Below, one piece after another: positions 19,253-42,775 of a DNA stretch of 64,000 nucleotides; position 1 is the stretch's first letter; each line of letters starts with the position of its first letter. The stretch comes from an uncultured Lachnospiraceae bacterium (GTDB lineage Bacteria > Bacillota > Clostridia > Lachnospirales > Lachnospiraceae): contig CADBFZ010000001.1 of assembly GCA_902794095.1 (NCBI GenBank), positions 124,001-188,000 of the forward strand, given 5' to 3'. The translations under genes and the position numbers were made by a program. The notes beneath the pieces are model-generated. The model did not search any database. It saw only the letters and a list, made by a program, of their open reading frames with translations, and had not been told where the DNA came from.

Positions 19253-19307
19253 AGTTAGATTTTATCACAATTCTTTACGCTAAAGTGATGAAATTTCATG
19301 CCTTAAA

Positions 19308-19316
19308 TGTTATAAT
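19308..19316 (+). promoter_or_regulatory. Extended -10 promoter of the AI-2E transporter gene
   Basis: TGTTATAAT is a perfect extended -10 element 26 bases before the ATG at 19342; no good -35 is seen. Confidence 0.55.
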
Positions 19317-19341
19317 CAAGACGTTCTTAGGGGGCAATCCA

Positions 19342-20763
19342 ATGACCAATTTCAGAGACGATAAAGAAGAAAAAGATATTATCACAGTAAATGCCGAAGG
19401 TAGGATTCGTAACAAGAACAAGAATCCTAAATTTGATAACCATTATTTCAAGTGGGGATTAACTTTCTTCATTACGTTTCTTGCATGCATTCTTTCTATT
19501 TACATTGTCTTTTATCACGATCAGTTTAAAGCAAGTATTCGCAACATTAATAAGATACTTTCGCCCGTTTATGTAGGATTTATCATCGCATACCTTTTCA
19601 GTCCGCTTTTGAACTCACTTGAAAAGAAGGTGATGTATCCGATCTATAAGAAGATAAAGTTCATCAAAGAAGAAAACAAGATGCCTCTTGCAAGAGGTAC
19701 TTCCATCATCTGTATCATCATATTATCCATTGTTTTGATATATGCCATCGTTCAGATAACCATTAAGCAGGTTATTCCTTCGCTTATCAGCATCGTATCA
19801 AACATCAATAATTACCTGGATAATATCACCGCATGGTTTGACAGATTCCTTGAAGATAACCCTTCGGTTAAAGCATTTGTCATGGATGATCTGAACAGAT
19901 TCTCCGATGATATTTCAACCTGGGTTACCGATAATTTCAAATCCCTTTCCACTAATATCATCAAGTCCTTATCAGCGGGCTTTCTTGTATTCGTAAAGAA
20001 ACTTTGGAATTTCATAATCGGATTTATCATTTCGATTTATGTTCTCTGGAGCAAGGAACGTCATGTTGGAAGATGCAAGAAGATCATCTACGCATTATTC
20101 CCCAGAGAGACCGCAAATGCTCTTGTAGAAGGCTTCAGATTTACTCACAGAACTTTCATCGGTTTCTTTTTCGGGAAGATCGTTGATTCGATCATTGTAG
20201 GACTTATCTGTTTCATCGGATGTACTTTGATGCAGATCCCTTATGCGATACTTATCAGTATCATCGTAGGCGTAACGAATATCATTCCTTTCTTTGGACC
20301 TTATTTCGGAGCGATTCCTTCTACGATTTTGATCTTTGCTTTTGACCCGCTGCATCCCGGCAAGGCTCTTGCATTTGTTATCTTTATCCTTGCACTGCAG
20401 CAGTTTGACGGAAATGTATTGGGCCCCAGAATTCTCAGTACTTCAACAGGTCTTACAGGATTCTGGATCATCTTCTCCATCACATTATTTGGCGGACTCT
20501 TCGGAGTATTCGGAATGGTTATCGGTGTTCCCGTATTTGCCGTAATCTATGCAGGACTCAGACAGTTCGGAAGAACACGTTTGAAGAAAAAAGGATTCCC
20601 TTACAGGACTTCTGATTATATTGATGTTGGTACCATAAATGAAGACGGTTCCATCAATCCCATTCCTCCCGTTGAAAAGAAACCCGGAAAGAAAGCTTTC
20701 ATTTCAACAGTAATCGATAATTTCAAAAACAATAAGAACAACAAAAAAGATAAAAAGAAATAA
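19342..20763 (+). CDS. AI-2E family transporter (PF01594)
   Basis: Encodes 473 aa from ATG 19342 with AGGGGG at 19329-19334; a longer frame from 19285 would include the promoter. Seven to eight membrane segments and the C-terminal family block ([17 protein letters not shown], then [13 protein letters not shown]) identify the AI-2E/PerM permease family, which includes AI-2 exporters and sodium/proton exchangers; the substrate cannot be inferred. The C-terminus is lysine/asparagine-rich. The stop overlaps the start of the next gene by one base. Confidence 0.88.
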
Positions 20764-22286
20764 TGAGATTTGTAATACAGAGAGTTTTGAATGCATCGGT
20801 ATCGATCATTGAAACTACGGAAAATAAAACAACGAGTGAAAGAATATCGGGATTCATTGGAAAAGGATTCCTGGTTTTGTGCGGCATTGAAGAGCATGAT
20901 ACCAAAGAGATCGCCGATAAGATGATCAAGAAACTTCTTGGTCTCAGGATATTTGAAGATGAAAACGGTAAAACTAATCTTGATCTGAAAGCCGTAAACG
21001 GTGAGCTTCTGATTGTTTCTCAGTTTACTCTTTGCGCAGATTGCAGTCACGGCAACAGACCTTCGTTTATTAATGCCGCTAAGCCTGAGATTGCTATTCC
21101 CATATATGAATATATAGTAGAAGAGTGCCGCAATGCAGGCTTCATGACCGAGACAGGAGAGTTCGGTGCCGATATGAGAGTGGACCTTACCAATGATGGT
21201 CCCTTTACAATTGTGCTCGATTCTGAAGATCTTAAGACAAATGCTGAAGAATCCGGCAATAAGATCATGGAACATCTGTCAAAAGAAACCGCTGCAGATG
21301 TTTTAAAAACATGCTTTAAACTTCAGGGCGCTGATGATTTCGGTGAAGCAATTAATGAAGTTATTGTCGATATCAGAAGAATTTGTGATGCAAAGCATGT
21401 ATGTTTGCTTCTTGTAGACAAAGCAAATCGTAAGTGCTCAATGCTTGCACATTCATATCTGGATGATGTCATTGAAGAACCCATTGATTGGCATGAAGAT
21501 GAACAGTTCAGACTTGTTGAAAGCTGGAATCAAATTGTTCCCGACAATAAGACTCTGATAATTAAAAATGTAGTTGAACTTCAGAAGATTAATTCCAAGA
21601 ATCCGGCATGGTATAAATCGCTTACAAAAGCACGTGTATATAATCTTGTTCTTTGTCCCCTTAGTTTTGAGGGTGAACTCATCGGTTATATATGGGCAAC
21701 CAATTTCGAAGTAGATAATACCGATCGCATTAAAGATACTCTTGAGCTGACAACATTTTTCCTTTCTTCGGAAATATCCAGATTCAGATTGCTGAACAGA
21801 CTTCATATGCTCAGCACCGTAGATCTTCTTACCGGAGCATTTAACCGTAATGCCATGAACGCAAGAATCGATTCCATGGCAAATGATAAAGATCCTGTGA
21901 AGCATCCTCTTGGAGTAATCTTTGCCGATCTGAACGGACTTAAGAGAGTAAATGATACCAAAGGACATGAAGCAGGAGACATTCTTCTAAAGAATGCAGC
22001 GCTTTTACTTCAGGGAGTCTTTGTGGGTTATGAAATATACAGAGCAGGCGGAGATGAATTCTTTATCCTGCTTAAAGACGTAACCAAGGAAGAAGTCATT
22101 AAGAAAGTATCAGATCTCAGAGAAGCAATTGCAGCAAACGGAACCATAAGCTTTGCAATCGGTCATACCCATGTTTCAAGTATGAAAGATGTAGAGAGAG
22201 CTTTCCATGAAGCTGATGAATCGATGTACGCTGATAAGAGAAAATTCTACATGGAGCATAAAGAGTTAGACCAAAGACGTGGTTGA
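20763..22286 (+). CDS. dtd: D-aminoacyl-tRNA deacylase fused to GAF and GGDEF domains
   Basis: One uninterrupted 507-aa frame. Residues 1-152 are a complete [11 protein letters not shown] start, SQFTLCAD (86-93) and the NDGPFT Gly-cisPro-type motif near 144-149. DTD hydrolyses D-amino acids (and glycine) from mischarged tRNA. Residues about 175-345 resemble a GAF sensor, and 350-497 form a GGDEF domain with GGDEF at 429-433 and no upstream RxxD inhibitory site, predicting a diguanylate cyclase. An internal ATG at 21267 has no good ribosome site, so a single polypeptide is favoured. DTD alone is normally about 150 aa. It follows the transporter gene by a one-base overlap. Confidence 0.9.
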
Positions 22287-22307: not shown

Positions 22308-22850
22308 ATGAAAGAGTACGATAATATAGTCCTGATTGGAATGCCGGGAGTCGGCAAAAGCACCGCCGGAGTTATTGCTGCCAAGACTCTCGGCCTTAAA
22401 TTTGAAGATACGGATCTTATGATCCAGTCAAATGAAGGCAGATTACTAAAACAGATAATTGCAGATGACGGCATTGAAGGATTCCTTAAAATCGAAGAAA
22501 ATGTGCTGAAAAGCATAAATCAGAAGGGATATTTGATAGCTACAGGCGGTAGCGCCGTATACGGATTCGAAGGCATGGAACATTTGCGTGAGAATTCACT
22601 CATAATATACCTGCATTTGGGGCTAGAGGAACTTACTCACAGATTAGGCAATCTGCAAAATCGAGGCGTCGTTTTAAAACCCGGACAAACCCTTGCGGAC
22701 ATTTACGAAGAACGTTTACCGCTTTACAGACGTTTTGCAGATATTGAAATTGATGAAACGGATCTTGATATCGAAGCCACAGTTACCAAAATATGCAGTG
22801 GGGCATCCATATATAACTATTCGCAAAATGCGGATTTAACGAATAGTTAG
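22308..22850 (+). CDS. aroK: Shikimate kinase
   Basis: Encodes 180 aa. Walker A GMPGVGKST at residues 11-19, the DTD substrate aspartates in FEDTDLMI, the IATGGSAV motif and the late lid/adenine segment (RGVVLKPGQTLADIYEERLPLYRRFAD) identify AroK. It phosphorylates shikimate, the fifth shikimate-pathway step; aroB is at 7676. The usual FR in the FR-x-E region reads FLKIEE, a common Clostridia variant. No clear ribosome site precedes the start. Confidence 0.88.
   Translation: MKEYDNIVLIGMPGVGKSTAGVIAAKTLGLKFEDTDLMIQSNEGRLLKQIIADDGIEGFLKIEENVLKSINQKGYLIATGGSAVYGFEGMEHLRENSLIIYLHLGLEELTHRLGNLQNRGVVLKPGQTLADIYEERLPLYRRFADIEIDETDLDIEATVTKICSGASIYNYSQNADLTNS
22814..22849. repeat. 10-base inverted repeat at the 3' end of aroK
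   Basis: TAACTATTCG at 22814-22823 is exactly inverted as CGAATAGTTA at 22840-22849 over a 16-base loop, ending inside the aroK stop codon. No T-run follows, so it is not a standard terminator. Confidence 0.5.
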
Positions 22851-24650: not shown

Positions 24651-26012
24651 TTATCTTCTTCCTCTTCTGTCCTGACCGGATTTTACATAGAAATTACGCT
24701 TATCTTCGTACATTCTCTGATCTGCGGTCTTGGCCAGTTCCTGTATGGACAGTTCAGGGAATTCATAATGAGGTGCATATCCTTTGGACATTGAAAGGGA
24801 TATATTAAGTTCACCTTTCCATTTACTTATGGATCTGTCCAGTATTTCTTTAGACTTCTCAAGATTATTTGAATCACAGCATATTATTGCTACGAATTCA
24901 TCACCGCCTGTTCTGAATACGTTACCGTAATCCTTAAAACAGTTCTTCAAACAGGTTGCTGCTCCTATTATCAGTTCATCACCGGCTTTATGTCCCAGTG
25001 TATCATTAGCTTTTTTTAGACCGTTAATGTCTACTGCAACATATACAAGGTTGCTGCACATTTTAGCTTCGGAAGAGATTTCCTTTAATTTCTCTTCATA
25101 AGCCCTTCTGTTATAGCAGCCTGTCAGCTTATCCATATTGGAAATCATCCAAAGCTCACGGTTGGTATCTCTTATCTTAAATACCATATTTGCAAATAAG
25201 GTTATAAGTGCGGAAATGGCTAAAAAGATAATGATCAGAAAAACAAAATTCTTATTGGAATACCAGCCTTCATTGGGACAGATGGATAATTCCCAATTCA
25301 GATTATTAATGGCAAATTCATAACTGATCTCATCCTCAACACGTTCGGCACTTTCTATAATAATATGTTTGGTGTTATGAGAATCTATATACGATAACCT
25401 GTAGTTAACACCCATTTCATCAAAAGGCTCGAATCTGAATGCGTCAACGAAGTTTTTAGAATCGACACTTAAACCGACTATGCCCCAAAATACCGGGACG
25501 TTCCCTTTATCAATATAAATCGGTGTTGTGGCGGATAATCCTATTCCGTTTGTTTTAATATCAAAATAATGAGTAAGTACAGTTTCACCGTCAGCATATG
25601 CATTCCTGGACTGAACATTTCCGGGTCTGCTGACATCGAGATAATCGTATCCGATCATGTCCTGATTTGAATCATAGGGATAAATATCGACAATCACCCC
25701 ATCAGGAGCAATGGCAATATAATCAAGAGTAATGCCGGATTCGGTTTTGATCATTTCAAAAACATCTCCGGCCATGAAATCAAAGAATCCTGTATCACCA
25801 TTATGATCCTTGATAAGGGCATTCAATACTTCGGCTCTGAGCAAAACATTATTAACGGTTGTTGCTATATGATCTGCTTTATCTTTGGCTATATATTGAT
25901 AAATGTTTTTTTGATTTGAAATTTCGTTTCTGACATACAAAGAATATGCTCCCATGAGCAATCCGAAAGTAATGATATAAATTAAGCTTAAGAGTAATAT
26001 TTTCTTCTTCAC
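24651..26012 (-). CDS. CHASE-domain diguanylate cyclase
   Basis: Encodes 453 aa. Membrane segments at about 5-25 and 255-278 flank an extracytoplasmic sensor (30-250) that resembles a CHASE domain (IAIAPDGVIVDIYPY, QDMIGYDYL, TTPIYI). The cytoplasmic GGDEF domain (about 290-445) has DKLTGCYNRRA, DINGLKKANDTLGHKAGDE and GGDEF at 369-373, so it should make cyclic di-GMP in response to an external ligand. The extreme C-terminus resembles that of the deacylase-GGDEF fusion (DKR-FY and a QDRRG/DQRRG tail), hinting at common origin of the cyclase domains. Confidence 0.9.
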   Translation of the reverse strand: MKKKILLLSLIYIITFGLLMGAYSLYVRNEISNQKNIYQYIAKDKADHIATTVNNVLLRAEVLNALIKDHNGDTGFFDFMAGDVFEMIKTESGITLDYIAIAPDGVIVDIYPYDSNQDMIGYDYLDVSRPGNVQSRNAYADGETVLTHYFDIKTNGIGLSATTPIYIDKGNVPVFWGIVGLSVDSKNFVDAFRFEPFDEMGVNYRLSYIDSHNTKHIIIESAERVEDEISYEFAINNLNWELSICPNEGWYSNKNFVFLIIIFLAISALITLFANMVFKIRDTNRELWMISNMDKLTGCYNRRAYEEKLKEISSEAKMCSNLVYVAVDINGLKKANDTLGHKAGDELIIGAATCLKNCFKDYGNVFRTGGDEFVAIICCDSNNLEKSKEILDRSISKWKGELNISLSMSKGYAPHYEFPELSIQELAKTADQRMYEDKRNFYVKSGQDRRGRR

Positions 26013-28683: not shown

Positions 28684-31377
28684 CTAGATTAAATCTATCC
28701 ATTCGGCGATTGTTTTATCGCAGGCATCGATATCGATATTTGCAACTTCTTCTTTTAATCTCTCATATAGAGTATTCTGATCGTCATCGAAACTGAACTT
28801 ATCAAGTCCGGACATAACTTCTTCCATCATGTCTATATCAAGATTATCAAGTGCTACGGACATCATATCGAAGAGTTCGGTCATTACTTTCTTGGATGCC
28901 TTTGATTTCTTCTTACTCTTCTTCTCTTCTGCTTTACCGTCAAATATACTGCCTATCAAAGGTTCATATTCAAGATACTTATGAAGCATGGGCTCTGTAT
29001 ATTTCTCGATAAATTCGGTGTTTCTGTCGTTACCTGCTTTTTCAAGCTCTGCAGCCATATCCGCAAGTTCCAAAGCTCCTGCCTGTCTTGAGAGAGACTT
29101 CAGGGCATGTACCTCGACAGTATAATTGGGCCAATCCTGATTGTTCAGATGTTCTCTTATAACCGCCGCTTTCGTAGGAATAGCTTTGTGATATTCCTTG
29201 AGAAGGTTATAATACATCTTCTCACTACCCAGCAGCCTTATGGCAGCTTCCGCATCAAGATCACCGAGATTATAAACTGCATCATAGCTTATATCATCGG
29301 AATTTCCTGATATCTCGGATATAACGATATCCTTCTTAATCTTTTCGATGGGAAGCCATTTCTTAACCGTATTTACAAGGTTGATAACTTCAATTGGCTT
29401 AGCAATAAAGTCATTCATTCCTTCGTTCAGGAACATATCCTTATTGCCTTCCATGGCATTTGCGGTAAGTGCAACTATAGGAACCTCATCATATTCTTTA
29501 TGAAGTCTTCTGATAATTCTGGTGGTTTCGATACCGTCTATCTCGGGCATCATATGGTCCATGAGTATCAGGTCAAACTTATTCTTCTCAATAAGTTCAA
29601 TCGCTTCTTTACCACCCGTAGCCCTTGTAATCTGCATCTTGAGAGGTTCAAGAAGTCCTTCTGCGATATTCAGGTTTACTTCATTGTCATCAACGATAAG
29701 AACCTTAGCTTCAGGAGCTGTGTAATCAAATTGAACCGCTCTGTCATTACGGGATACCTTAAGTTCCTCATTATTAAGAGCCATTGCGATAGACAGTGAT
29801 GACAACGGCTTTTTAATAATCCTGAAATTGGTCTTCTTAGTTGAATATTCACTGGTAAGATCTGTAATTTCTACGAAGTTGATCTCCGGATTTTTATTAA
29901 TGATCCTTTCAAGTGCAGGAAGATACATCTCCTCATCAAAGAATAAAACAAGCTTCTTATTCTTTAATTCGCTTGCATAATTTGAAAGCATATCATTAAG
30001 CGAATCAAGGTTAACAAGTGCTGCATGAAATACACCCAGATTCTTGGCATCTCTGTAGAACTGTCTTGCCATGTATCTGTTGGAAAAGAGACCGGTTATC
30101 ATAAATGCGTCAGGTTCACGCACGAAAATTGAGGGTGAATGATCCACAACTTTCTGAGGAATAATGATGGTGAACTTGCTTCCCTTTTCATATACAGATT
30201 CAACAGAAAGAGTTCCGTGCATGAGCTCCACAAGTCTCTTTGTAATGGCAAGACCCAGGCCGGTTCCTTCAACGTTTCTGTTACGTTTGGAATCAACCTG
30301 TGAGAAAGACTCAAATATTTTCTCAAGATCTGCTTTCTTGATACCGATACCGGTATCGGAAACACTGATCCTCATATTGATCGTATCTTCGGATACATCC
30401 TCGTAATCGAGGCTTATCTTAACACGACCTTTGTTGGTGAATTTAATCGCATTATTGGACAGATTTATAAGAATCTGTTTGATCCTCTGGCTGTCACCGA
30501 TAACCTTACAGGGAAATGTAGGATTGATATTCAAAAGAAGCTCAAGCTTCTTGGTACCGATCCTTGTTGTAATGATATTACAGGTATCGTTAAAGATGGA
30601 TAAAGGAGTATACTCCTCTTCCATTATCTCCATTCTTCCCGAATCAATCTTCGAAAAATCGAGAATGTCATTAATGATATTAAGCAGTGACATTCCGCTG
30701 GTTTTGATCTGAGAAATATAATCCCTTGCAGCGGGAGGAAGATCTTCTCTTAAAGACATCTCTGCCATTCCCAAAACGGCATTCATAGGGGTTCTGATCT
30801 CATGGCTCATATTAGCCAGGAAGTCAGATCTCATATCTGCATTCTTTTTAATGGTTTCTGCGGAATGCTGAATCTCTTCGGCTGAAATATAAGATTTAAT
30901 CTCTGCTTCAACAGCTTTAAGCCTGCCGTTGGCAAGCTTGGATACGATATCTATATTTGATAACAGATATTTGGAAGCAAGTTCGATATGATCTTTGGTG
31001 AAAAACTGAACGGCGTCAACACCTTCATTTTCCGGAGTTCTGACAGCTCCGGTACCCATCATACAACCGAGAACTTCATCGTCATATTTAAAAGGGATTG
31101 CGAAAATGATAATTCCGCCATGATATTCATAGAAAATAAAATCGCCGGTTCTTATGGCATTATATCCCAGGGTGGATGCATACTCTTTAACCGCAACATC
31201 ATCTACACTTCCGTTTGATGCAACGGAAATATATTGATAGAAATATGTACTATCGGTAACAGGGGCACCTTCAGCATCCATTATGTAATTGGATAAACCG
31301 GAATACAGATAACAGGAAGCACACATCTGCTCCAGCATATCCAGGGATATGAAATCTGTAAGAGTTATATTATCCAT
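28684..31377 (-). CDS. Hybrid histidine kinase with PocR-like sensor, REC and HPt domains
   Basis: Encodes 897 aa with no membrane segments. In order: a PocR-type ligand-binding domain (about 5-150, FISLDMLEQM), HisKA with H192 in MSHEIRTPMN, a HATPase with N, G1 (DTGIGI) and G2 (GTGLGL) boxes to about 410, a degenerate receiver at about 415-535, a canonical receiver with D607 (LILMDHMMPE) and an HPt domain with H757 (VHALKSLSRQAG). This is a complete intramolecular phosphorelay. No DNA-binding output is encoded next to it. It lies 4 bases after the two-receiver gene. Confidence 0.92.
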   Translation of the reverse strand: MDNITLTDFISLDMLEQMCASCYLYSGLSNYIMDAEGAPVTDSTYFYQYISVASNGSVDDVAVKEYASTLGYNAIRTGDFIFYEYHGGIIIFAIPFKYDDEVLGCMMGTGAVRTPENEGVDAVQFFTKDHIELASKYLLSNIDIVSKLANGRLKAVEAEIKSYISAEEIQHSAETIKKNADMRSDFLANMSHEIRTPMNAVLGMAEMSLREDLPPAARDYISQIKTSGMSLLNIINDILDFSKIDSGRMEIMEEEYTPLSIFNDTCNIITTRIGTKKLELLLNINPTFPCKVIGDSQRIKQILINLSNNAIKFTNKGRVKISLDYEDVSEDTINMRISVSDTGIGIKKADLEKIFESFSQVDSKRNRNVEGTGLGLAITKRLVELMHGTLSVESVYEKGSKFTIIIPQKVVDHSPSIFVREPDAFMITGLFSNRYMARQFYRDAKNLGVFHAALVNLDSLNDMLSNYASELKNKKLVLFFDEEMYLPALERIINKNPEINFVEITDLTSEYSTKKTNFRIIKKPLSSLSIAMALNNEELKVSRNDRAVQFDYTAPEAKVLIVDDNEVNLNIAEGLLEPLKMQITRATGGKEAIELIEKNKFDLILMDHMMPEIDGIETTRIIRRLHKEYDEVPIVALTANAMEGNKDMFLNEGMNDFIAKPIEVINLVNTVKKWLPIEKIKKDIVISEISGNSDDISYDAVYNLGDLDAEAAIRLLGSEKMYYNLLKEYHKAIPTKAAVIREHLNNQDWPNYTVEVHALKSLSRQAGALELADMAAELEKAGNDRNTEFIEKYTEPMLHKYLEYEPLIGSIFDGKAEEKKSKKKSKASKKVMTELFDMMSVALDNLDIDMMEEVMSGLDKFSFDDDQNTLYERLKEEVANIDIDACDKTIAEWIDLI

Positions 31378-34157: not shown

Positions 34158-35531
34158 TTATCTTCCGGCTAATTCCTTTGTAACTTCTTCCCAGGAAATC
34201 TCTTTCTCAGCCATAAGTACCATTAAATGATATAGAAGATCGCTGATCTCATAAACGGTTTCCTGATTGGAGTGATTCTTGGCTGCGATAATAGTCTCCG
34301 TAGCTTCCTCTCCCACTTTCTTAAGGATCTTATCAAGGCCCTTATCAAGCAGGTAATTGGTGTAGGAACCTTCCTTGGGATGTACCTTACGGTCCTTGAT
34401 TACATCATATACCTTCTCAAATACAAGAAGAGGATTTGTCTCATCGACTTCTTCACTTCCTGTGATTTCGTTAAAGAAGCAAGATCTCGCACCGGTATGA
34501 CATGCTACACCCACCTGGGATACTTTGGCAAGTATTGTATCTTTATCGCAGTCTGCAGTAAGGGATTTTACATACTGATAATGACCGCTGGTCTCACCCT
34601 TAACCCACTGCTCTTCACGGCTTCTTGAATAATAAGTCATAAGTCCGGTAGAGATGGTGTTAAGGAAAGCTTCCTCGTTCATATAAGCAAGCATAAGAAC
34701 TTCGTTGTTCTTATAATCCTGTACGATAACCGGGATAAGATCGTTGGGACCTTTCTTAAGATCGGACCATTTGATCTTGCTCTCAAGTCTTCTAACGATG
34801 ATTCCATTTTCGGTACAAATATCCTTAATGGATGAAATCTCTCCTGAGTTAAGCGAGATAACATTTCCGGTTACACCGGCTACAGAATCTTTCTTGAGAT
34901 ATTCGATGATCTTATTAAAAGCAAGATCCTTGGCGCTGATAACGATGGGAAGATCCACATCTCCTTCGATTACATCAAGTGCATGGATATTCTTAAGAAG
35001 TATTCCGGAGCAGTATTTAACGGCAAGATCCGATACGCTGCCGGTATCCTTATCATCACCTGAATGATAATTGGTGTCGGTTCCGATAAGAAGGCTTCTG
35101 TCCAGGGATTCTACCTGAGTGGTAAGAGTCTGAGGGTATGAAACCGCTGCATATACTTTATCTCTTCCGAATCTTCCGCTTGCTGCAGATGTAAGAAGGA
35201 TATTTACTTCCTTGTCGTAATCAAGAATAACCTTGGAACATCCTGCATATATAAGCTTCTTAACATCTTCAAGTCGCTTGATGTTACCGGTTGCATAGAT
35301 GGGAACCTCACTGTCTCCGCAAATTGCACGAATAATCCTGAGTGCCTCATCATGTGCTTCATCACCCATGCCTTCGGAAAGATCGTAGATTATGATTCCG
35401 TCTGCAAGATCCCTGCAGAATTTCATGGCAAGGGAATACGCATCAGCTTCGATTATTGAATCGTCTTCATCGGATGCCACTGCACTTCCGTTCTTAAGAT
35501 AGATACAGGGCAGAAATTTCTTAACGTACAT
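34158..35531 (-). CDS. hisIE: HisIE with an N-terminal degenerate HisF-like domain
   Basis: Encodes 457 aa, twice the usual HisIE length. Residues about 250-350 are phosphoribosyl-AMP cyclohydrolase ([36 protein letters not shown]) and 365-457 phosphoribosyl-ATP diphosphatase ([25 protein letters not shown]); together they catalyse histidine steps 2 and 3. Residues 1-235 resemble a HisA/HisF barrel ([32 protein letters not shown]) but lack the catalytic aspartates (CIYLKNG where HisF has CLDVKDG; AAVSYPQ for the second). It may be structural or regulatory. hisB overlaps it by one base. Confidence 0.88.
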
Positions 35532-40703: not shown

Positions 40704-42638
40704 TTAAAAAGAATCAAGAAGCTGCTTAAGTGAGTCTTCTACATCCTCGGTTACCGTAGTCATCATGTTGATGGATGTAGCTGTTTCTTCGGATGAAGCA
40801 ACAAGGTTCTCAGCTCTTGAATTGACCTTCTTAACTATATCTGCAAGTCTCTGGGACTCTTCGATAAGCTTGGTGATGGTCTCTTTAATATCCTGGTTGT
40901 TCTTATTGGAATCGTTTGCAGTAACATTTGAATTCTCTGCAAGATTCTTTATCTCGTCAGCAACAACCGCAAATCCTCTTCCGGCTTCACCCGCACGAGC
41001 AGCTTCGATTGAAGCATTAAGTGCAAGAAGGTTAGTCTGGTTTGATATTGCTATAACGTCTGCGTTATTTGATTCAAGCTTATCAAGATATCCCTCTATT
41101 GTAGAGAGAACGTTACGAAGGTTCTCTGCAAACTGATCGACCTCAGCCATGTACTCGGATATCTTGGAGGTCTGCTGAGCGTTATCATCACTTATCTTCT
41201 GAATCTGATTGATGGAGTTAAGAAGATTTGCGAAGTTTTCGTTAATTCCGGATGAAAGAGAATCTTTCTTTTCAACAAGTTCATCATGAGTTTTCTGAAC
41301 CTGTTCGGTAAGAGCGATTGCCTTATCCTTCTCTTCGTATGCTCTGTCTTTGATATAGTGTACACAGTTATGACGATGGCTGAATCCGTTGGCAATTGCA
41401 ATTGCCATTTCACGACATGAATCATATCCGCAGCATGAGCAGTCGATATGACGCTTCTCTTCGGTATCCTTTCTCATCTTGGTAAAGATCTGATTGATCT
41501 CTGCGTCGGAAGGAATCCTGAAAGCACAATCCTTGCTTCTGTCGGTATATTTCCTTATAAAGTCATTCAGATTAAGATCTGCAAACTGCTTATTAAGAGC
41601 GGCAAGTCTCTTCTCGGGAGTAAGTTTCTTACCCCATGCGGATCTCTTCGAATCATTCTTGGAACTTATCTTAACCTTCTGAATGGTCTCGAATACTTCC
41701 TCATCCATGGTCTTACGGTTATCAACTCCTGTTCCGTAGAGACAGCCGTTGGTACAGTTGAGTGCATCGATAAAGAGATAACCTGTTCTGCCGTTCTTGA
41801 TTCTTTCTTTGTTGCGGCGAAGATACTCATACATATGATGTTCGCCTTCCATCTGACGAACAAGAGCATCCTCTCCCAGAAGCCAATATACATTCTCTTT
41901 CAGACCGCCGGGCATAGGATAAATTGATCCGAGGCCATATTCAATCTCGTCCTTATAAGGCTGAGCTCCGCTTACGGGATGAGTCTTAAGATATGCAACA
42001 AGCTTTGAAAATGTAAGATTATATGCGATATATCCCTGATTATTGGGATCGTCTATCTCATTCTTTTTGGCAATACAAGGACTGATAAATGCAAACTTGT
42101 CATTTATCTTAAGATACTTCTTGGCATAGATTGCAGTACACATCATGGGACTGTGTACCGGCATGAGTTTGGGAAGAAGTTCGGGTAGGTATCTCTCGAT
42201 ATAACCTACAACTGCAGGACAAGGCTGAGAAATTCCACCGTAGAATTTATGCTCAGTAATATATTTGATGTATGCCCAGGTAGTGATATCTGCTCCGAAA
42301 GAAACGCTGATAAAGCGATTAACTCCCAGCTTTTTGAGCATACCGAGATATTTCTCATAGTCACGAGGATAATTAGCAAGAAAAGCGGGAGCAATGATAA
42401 CGGAGATCTTCTGACCTTTCGAAAGATCTGCGAAGAACTGCTCAACATCATCTTCATACTCTCTTGCCTGATGCTCACACGCATCAAGACATGCACCGCA
42501 GGCGATGCACTTTTTAGGATCTACTTCTATTATGTTGCCTCTTTCTTTTTCAACGGCAACATTCGCTCCGATACAGCTACAGGCTCTGATACATTTATTA
42601 CATCCGATACATTTGTCGTTTGTCTTGATCAACCCCAT
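40704..42638 (-). CDS. [FeFe]-hydrogenase-like protein fused to a chemoreceptor signalling domain
   Basis: Encodes 644 aa from the ATG at 42638 (GGAGG upstream). Two ferredoxin-type 4Fe-4S motifs (from C10 and about C44) lead to an [FeFe]-hydrogenase large-domain fold with variants of the H-cluster motifs: [17 protein letters not shown] and [22 protein letters not shown] cluster motif (about 390) follows, then a cytoplasmic methyl-accepting domain with the hairpin tip [19 protein letters not shown]. No membrane segment is present. It resembles sensory hydrogenases (HydS type) and probably couples redox or hydrogen state to chemotaxis kinases encoded elsewhere. Confidence 0.88.
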
Positions 42639-42775
42639 ACTATCCTCCAAGGTGAAAATAGATTGCCACTTAACATATTTTACTAAAATTATGCTTTTTA
42701 TACCAATTTAAAAATTTAGCAATTTTGTGACTATACAGGAAATCAAATGCTCCATCGATCTTGAGGGAGCTCAAA

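Follow-up and report, generated by a model that had tools for sequence, protein, structure and literature searches.

The window, as we call the 64,000-nucleotide stretch of Lachnospiraceae DNA analysed here, carries at positions 20763–22286 (+) an uninterrupted frame of 507 codons that starts with ATG and encodes, in this order, a D-aminoacyl-tRNA deacylase (DTD) domain, a linker, a GAF-like domain, a long helix and a GGDEF domain. As a rule, DTD stands alone, as an enzyme with a length of about 150 amino acids. Directly upstream lies the gene of an AI-2E family transporter (19285–20763, +), whose stop codon overlaps the ATG of the fusion gene by one base, and 21 bp past the stop codon of the fusion follows a shikimate kinase gene (22308–22850, +). 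An Rfam search of the window at the gathering threshold gave no matches.

The first half of the fusion protein (residues 1–153; 20763–21221, +) is a full DTD domain with both signature motifs, as a sequence-only reading of this DNA had claimed. Pfam Tyr_Deacylase (PF02580) matches residues 2–153 over the whole profile (positions 1–144 of 144; E 1.1e-52, 178.7 bits against a cut-off of 25), the NCBIfam equivalog for D-aminoacyl-tRNA deacylase, TIGR00256, scores 165 bits against a cut-off of 101.5, and Foldseek superposes the predicted structure on E. coli DTD (1jke) with a TM score of 0.94 by target length. The SQFTL motif (residues 86–90; 21018–21032, +) and the NDGPFT motif with its Gly-cisPro pair (residues 144–149; 21192–21209, +) are identical in all seven fused proteins that we aligned. 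A nine-residue insertion in the DTD hairpin (around residues 16–24; 20808–20834) occurs in the same seven proteins as well as in four unfused DTDs (G017, G020, G024 and G030), while it is missing or shorter in the eight others aligned; being common to fused and some unfused DTDs, it is probably older than the fusion.

The C-terminal part comprises the GGDEF (diguanylate cyclase) domain and a short tail (residues 353–507; 21819–22283, +), with a Pfam GGDEF (PF00990) match at residues 352–494 (E 1.8e-23). Its catalytic motif (residues 429–433; 22047–22061, +) is unbroken in 7/7 fused proteins, again in line with the sequence-only reading, and so are the DLN..K..ND..GH..GD residues, which we take to bind substrate and metal. 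A degenerate GGDEF domain was therefore rejected. In all seven proteins the place of the RxxD inhibitory site (I-site) ahead of the motif is taken by other residues; this site is common in GGDEF proteins without being obligatory, and feedback control of the I-site type would thus be absent.

Between these two domains, the alignments and an AlphaFold2 model define a linker (residues 154–171; 21222–21275, +), a GAF-like domain (residues ~172–316; 21276–21710, +) and, from the model, a helix of 36 residues joining GAF and GGDEF (residues 317–352; 21711–21818, +). By Pfam and a fresh alignment, DTD stops at about residues 153–158, and homology to unfused cyclases begins at about residues 169–172. 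The linker is variable: only 3 of its 22 reference positions are invariant across the seven fused proteins, it is 16 columns longer in the fusions of G001 and G027 than in the other fused group, and residues 160–166 have a pLDDT below 50, i.e. they are predicted to be disordered. The model (a monomer built on an alignment of 63 sequences, in which the rows of unfused cyclases were misplaced around residues 153–200) reaches a mean pLDDT of 90.3 and a pTM of 0.58, which means that the single domains are confident and their relative placement is unsure. The GAF-like part has a Pfam GAF score (E 0.0011, 19.9 bits) under the cut-off of 22.4 and is confidently modelled. The model aligns with Dcsbis of Pseudomonas aeruginosa (4ZMU), with 353 aligned columns, 22% identity and a TM score of 0.39 by target length; the poor superposition of the whole chains is probably due to a differing arrangement of the domains.

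That this frame is real, continuous and free of frameshifts, as had been proposed with sequencing error named as one way in which it might fail, is borne out by other genomes. Searching 59 genomes at the protein level, with the window's among them, turned up the full-length, stop-free fusion in seven genomes of one genus, at full-length identities to the window protein of 82–90% (G007, G012, G028 and G026) and 59–60% (G001 and G027), and with this base composition a further 345 codons would stay open by chance with a probability of about 1e-11. A scan of named genomes with six exact peptides returned 79 loci, four of which carry the fusion and correspond to four of the seven fused genes. What might suggest an artefact of sequencing or assembly is that many of the genomes are split into numerous contigs and that, of the four named fused genomes, three are metagenome-assembled. 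Six further assemblies nevertheless encode the protein stop-free, one of them (G012) on a contig that is 916,590 bases long and not labelled as metagenome-assembled, and this refutes the explanation in practice and leaves it a negligible probability. An internal start, or proteolysis, that frees GAF-GGDEF from DTD so that the parts work separately is likewise quite improbable. It could draw on an in-frame ATG that, in the window gene and G012, stands at residue 169 just ahead of the GAF-like domain, and on a TTG at residue 172 in G007 and a GTG at residue 186 in G027 (the window gene also has GTG codons at 140 and 151); yet G001, G026 and G028 have no in-frame start codon between residues 145 and 199, and no start position is common to more than two of the seven genes, so a conserved internal start was rejected. 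The earlier claim that no in-frame start with a good ribosome site separates the parts holds insofar as no clear site was seen ahead of Met169 and no start is conserved, but it carries little weight, because the main ATG is itself preceded by merely a weak A-rich stretch.

The fusion was found in a single genus. Among its 31 genomes searched with PF02580, DTD was detected in 24, seven with fused frames of 508–526 amino acids and 17 with unfused DTD only; no DTD match was obtained in the remaining seven (G002, G004, G005, G008, G016, G021 and G022, of which G008 is listed as 91% complete). Some of the fusion-bearing bacteria come from ruminant stomachs. In six of the seven fused genomes the fusion is the sole DTD match, whereas G026 has, on a contig of 4,172 bases, an additional unfused DTD that shares 99% identity with its G030 counterpart; given the listed contamination of 5% for the bin, mis-binning of this copy is suspected, not proven. 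DTD homologues of wider samples were checked for GGDEF domains as well: a family sample (397 genomes, 349 with DTD, about 150 matches listed), a class sample (167 genomes, 139 with DTD, all listed) and a phylum sample (189 genomes, 174 with DTD, about 150 matches listed). Outside the genus, no DTD-GGDEF frame was found among the matches listed. Apart from the window fusion, no frame of the class sample exceeds 266 amino acids, and re-searching 80 low-scoring family genomes recovered DTD in all 80, with a longest frame of 214 amino acids. Two DTD frames of more than 266 amino acids (304 and 341) were seen outside the genus among the matches listed, both in the phylum sample; together with two frames of 266 amino acids, one each from the family and the class sample, they were rejected as fusions, since their extra length lies upstream and they end with DTD, with no GGDEF. 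Conversely, the GAF half has matches in 41 of 299 family genomes, and among the 30 loci listed, DTD stands in the same frame in the window and G027 only.

Within the fetched stretches, fused and unfused species have the same neighbourhood, with genes for a DUF3048 protein, a tyrosine recombinase, the AI-2E transporter, DTD and shikimate kinase; a lexA-like repressor and an aminotransferase are presumably further neighbours. In the six unfused genomes examined (G010, G017, G018, G020, G023 and G030), a stand-alone DTD of 158–162 amino acids occupies the syntenic place, although shikimate kinase was not recognised beside it in G010 and G018. The sequence-only reading had regarded relatives with two separate proteins as speaking against a true fusion, which is half the case here: these six do encode DTD alone at the locus, but none has a GAF-GGDEF gene directly adjoining it.

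Several other signalling and multidomain proteins are encoded in the window. A second GGDEF protein (24651–26012, −) lies convergent to the fusion at a distance of 2.4 kb and has a weak, sub-threshold CHASE match; relatives of it are found near the fusion in G001, G012, G026 and G027, and a similar GGDEF protein is located about 4 kb from the stand-alone dtd in G018 and G020. Farther along, a hybrid histidine kinase with a PocR sensory domain, a receiver and an Hpt domain (28684–31377, −) adjoins a receiver-domain gene, and three histidine-biosynthesis domains, a partial His_biosynth, PRA-CH and PRA-PH, are joined in a single frame (34158–35531, −). One further frame (40704–42650, −) combines a domain resembling the large subunit of iron-only hydrogenases with ferredoxin motifs and a methyl-accepting chemotaxis signalling domain, and its product is a possible redox or hydrogen sensor.

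As to the origin of the cyclase half, its nearest unfused relatives are proteins of 474 amino acids in G010 and G023, which are encoded elsewhere in the genome and are, over GAF-GGDEF, 53–56% identical to the window protein and 61–66% identical to those of G001 and G027. In a model of the G010 protein (mean pLDDT 81), the N-terminal 125 residues are arranged as strand-strand-helix-helix-strand-strand-strand, an order that in our reading suggests a PAS-like domain. Pfam detected no family in the N-terminal part of the three unfused cyclases scanned, and Foldseek, used with the G010 model, gave no separate match for this domain, its first 25 rows being long alignments of low TM score (0.16–0.42) headed by phytochrome-linked cyclases, DosP and GGDEF structures. 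Homology between fused and unfused cyclases starts at the edge of the PAS-like domain; DTD replaces this domain there and thus fills the position of the sensor in a known diguanylate cyclase type. None of the seven fused genomes, whose listed completeness is 80–99%, yielded a PAS-bearing unfused orthologue: five have just paralogues, with 34–40% identity over the PAS part, and two have none.

Trees were used to ask how often the fusion arose. The fused DTDs do not form one clade (AU p 0.005). The fused GAF-GGDEFs cluster together with a support of 92/93, under the tool's star, and a species-like topology, following the tree of neighbouring genes, remains acceptable for them (p 0.317 and 0.297). 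In a tree of five neighbouring genes, G001 and G027 sit with G030 and G017, two genomes within their subclade that have DTD alone, and three changes of fusion state are needed, at least two of them forced by starred branches. The fusion is kept in all five genomes sampled from the window's own subclade. These results are compatible with one old fusion followed by several losses, with two fusions, and with recombination.

Both halves of the fused gene are under purifying selection, as judged from six pairs of fused genes with dN/dS values of 0.05–0.12 for DTD, 0.05–0.13 for GAF and 0.05–0.16 for GGDEF; dS for the G001–G027 pair is 1.4–2.2 and hence near saturation. The idea that the window's subclade has lost conserved residues was considered and rejected, since a fresh alignment revealed no position that is alike in at least 17 of the 19 other rows and changed in these five. 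Every fused genome also has 13–19 EAL and 1–3 PilZ matches, which by family indicates a c-di-GMP network with breakers and receptors besides makers.

The best explanation of these observations, and one that we consider fairly probable, is a bifunctional enzyme in which the dimer of the DTD half also dimerises the cyclase. It would have arisen by domain exchange, with DTD taking the place of the N-terminal PAS-like domain of GAF-GGDEF cyclases. The DTD half is predicted to perform its housekeeping task, i.e. the removal of D-amino acids from tRNA and of glycine from tRNA-Ala; glycine on tRNA-Ala is reported to be a DTD substrate (PMC5409826). A structural study describes DTD as a symmetric dimer with two active sites at the interface, each built from the SQFTL of one subunit and the NXGP(V/F)T of the other (PMC3845328), and for several cyclases it is reported that the register of the coiled coil preceding the dimeric GGDEF domains governs their activity (PMC12805367). 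Taken together, these properties mean that an N-terminal DTD dimer would pair two GAF-helix-GGDEF arms and hold them in the arrangement that GGDEF needs for c-di-GMP synthesis, the output of the cyclase being set by the GAF domain and the helix, possibly together with the state of the DTD dimer. The architecture, the unbroken motifs, the syntenic place and the selection on both halves are observed here, and both activities, the dimer-driven activation of the cyclase and any influence of tRNA are inferred.

Whether the join has a regulatory meaning is a matter on which the evidence pulls in different directions. A short, variable and partly disordered linker is more what one would expect of a tether than of a rigid signal path, and the existence of some very close relatives that have DTD and lack the cyclase implies that any coupling is not indispensable; the linker, and a tail that close relatives have gained or lost, thus argue for caution on coupling. 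They fit a neutral tether, in which both enzymes work and dtd has captured a tail that is losable and brings, perhaps, constant co-expression, and the interleaving of fused and unfused states in the DTD and flank-gene trees points the same way. We regard this explanation as possible, if on the unlikely side, because all five genomes sampled from the window's subclade retain the fusion, GAF and GGDEF are under purifying selection, the join falls at the boundary of the PAS-like slot and the fused genomes did not yield an unfused orthologue. More doubtful still is a role of DTD as the sensor itself, whereby D-aminoacyl- or glycyl-tRNA bound at the dimer interface would shift the alignment of the GGDEF domains and stress on translation quality would set c-di-GMP; the sequence-only reading had suggested that the fusion could tie D-amino-acid or glycine mischarging to this signal. 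The N-terminal position that DTD takes over from the PAS-like domain speaks for such a role, as does the location of its active sites at the dimer interface, but the linker is flexible and unconserved, and in the structural study, Plasmodium DTD with and without ligand superposes to within 0.41 Å with subtle differences (PMC3845328).

The bifunctional enzyme that we favour would, if true, connect translation proofreading with c-di-GMP signalling by a direct physical link. A tentative extension, which we rate as rather unlikely, is a bacterial sensor of translation fidelity in which DTD reports the load of D-aminoacyl- or glycyl-tRNA directly to the cyclase, so that mischarging sets c-di-GMP and hence lifestyle; D-amino acids freed in a habitat rich in cell walls would be one example of a source of mischarging. 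Should the fusion have arisen twice, a case that the trees speak neither for nor against, coupling would have been selected repeatedly. The genus moreover offers a natural experiment, with the same dtd locus present with and without the cyclase in close relatives and the same type of cyclase equipped with either a PAS-like domain or DTD.

The statement of the sequence-only reading that it knew of no described DTD-GGDEF fusion agrees with our searches of openly accessible literature, judged partly by title and the start of the abstract, in which none was found. Set beside known DTDs (TIGR00256/PF02580; E. coli 1JKE, P. falciparum 3KNF), the fusion protein has the same whole domain, the same two signature motifs and the same fold, and differs by the C-terminal GAF-GGDEF arm and by the nine-residue hairpin insertion, which is also present in the unfused DTDs that near relatives have. 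With the PAS-like GAF-GGDEF proteins of Lachnospiraceae (about 463–500 amino acids, 37–56% identical to the window protein) it has in common the GAF-like domain, the long helix and the GGDEF domain, whereas these proteins carry another N-terminal domain, common to an alignment of 12 and PAS-like in one model, where the fusion has DTD. Dcsbis, which we take to be a GAF-GGDEF diguanylate cyclase, aligns with this arm and, unlike the fusion, lacks DTD. Each half is an ordinary member of its family, and it is their combination that is new.
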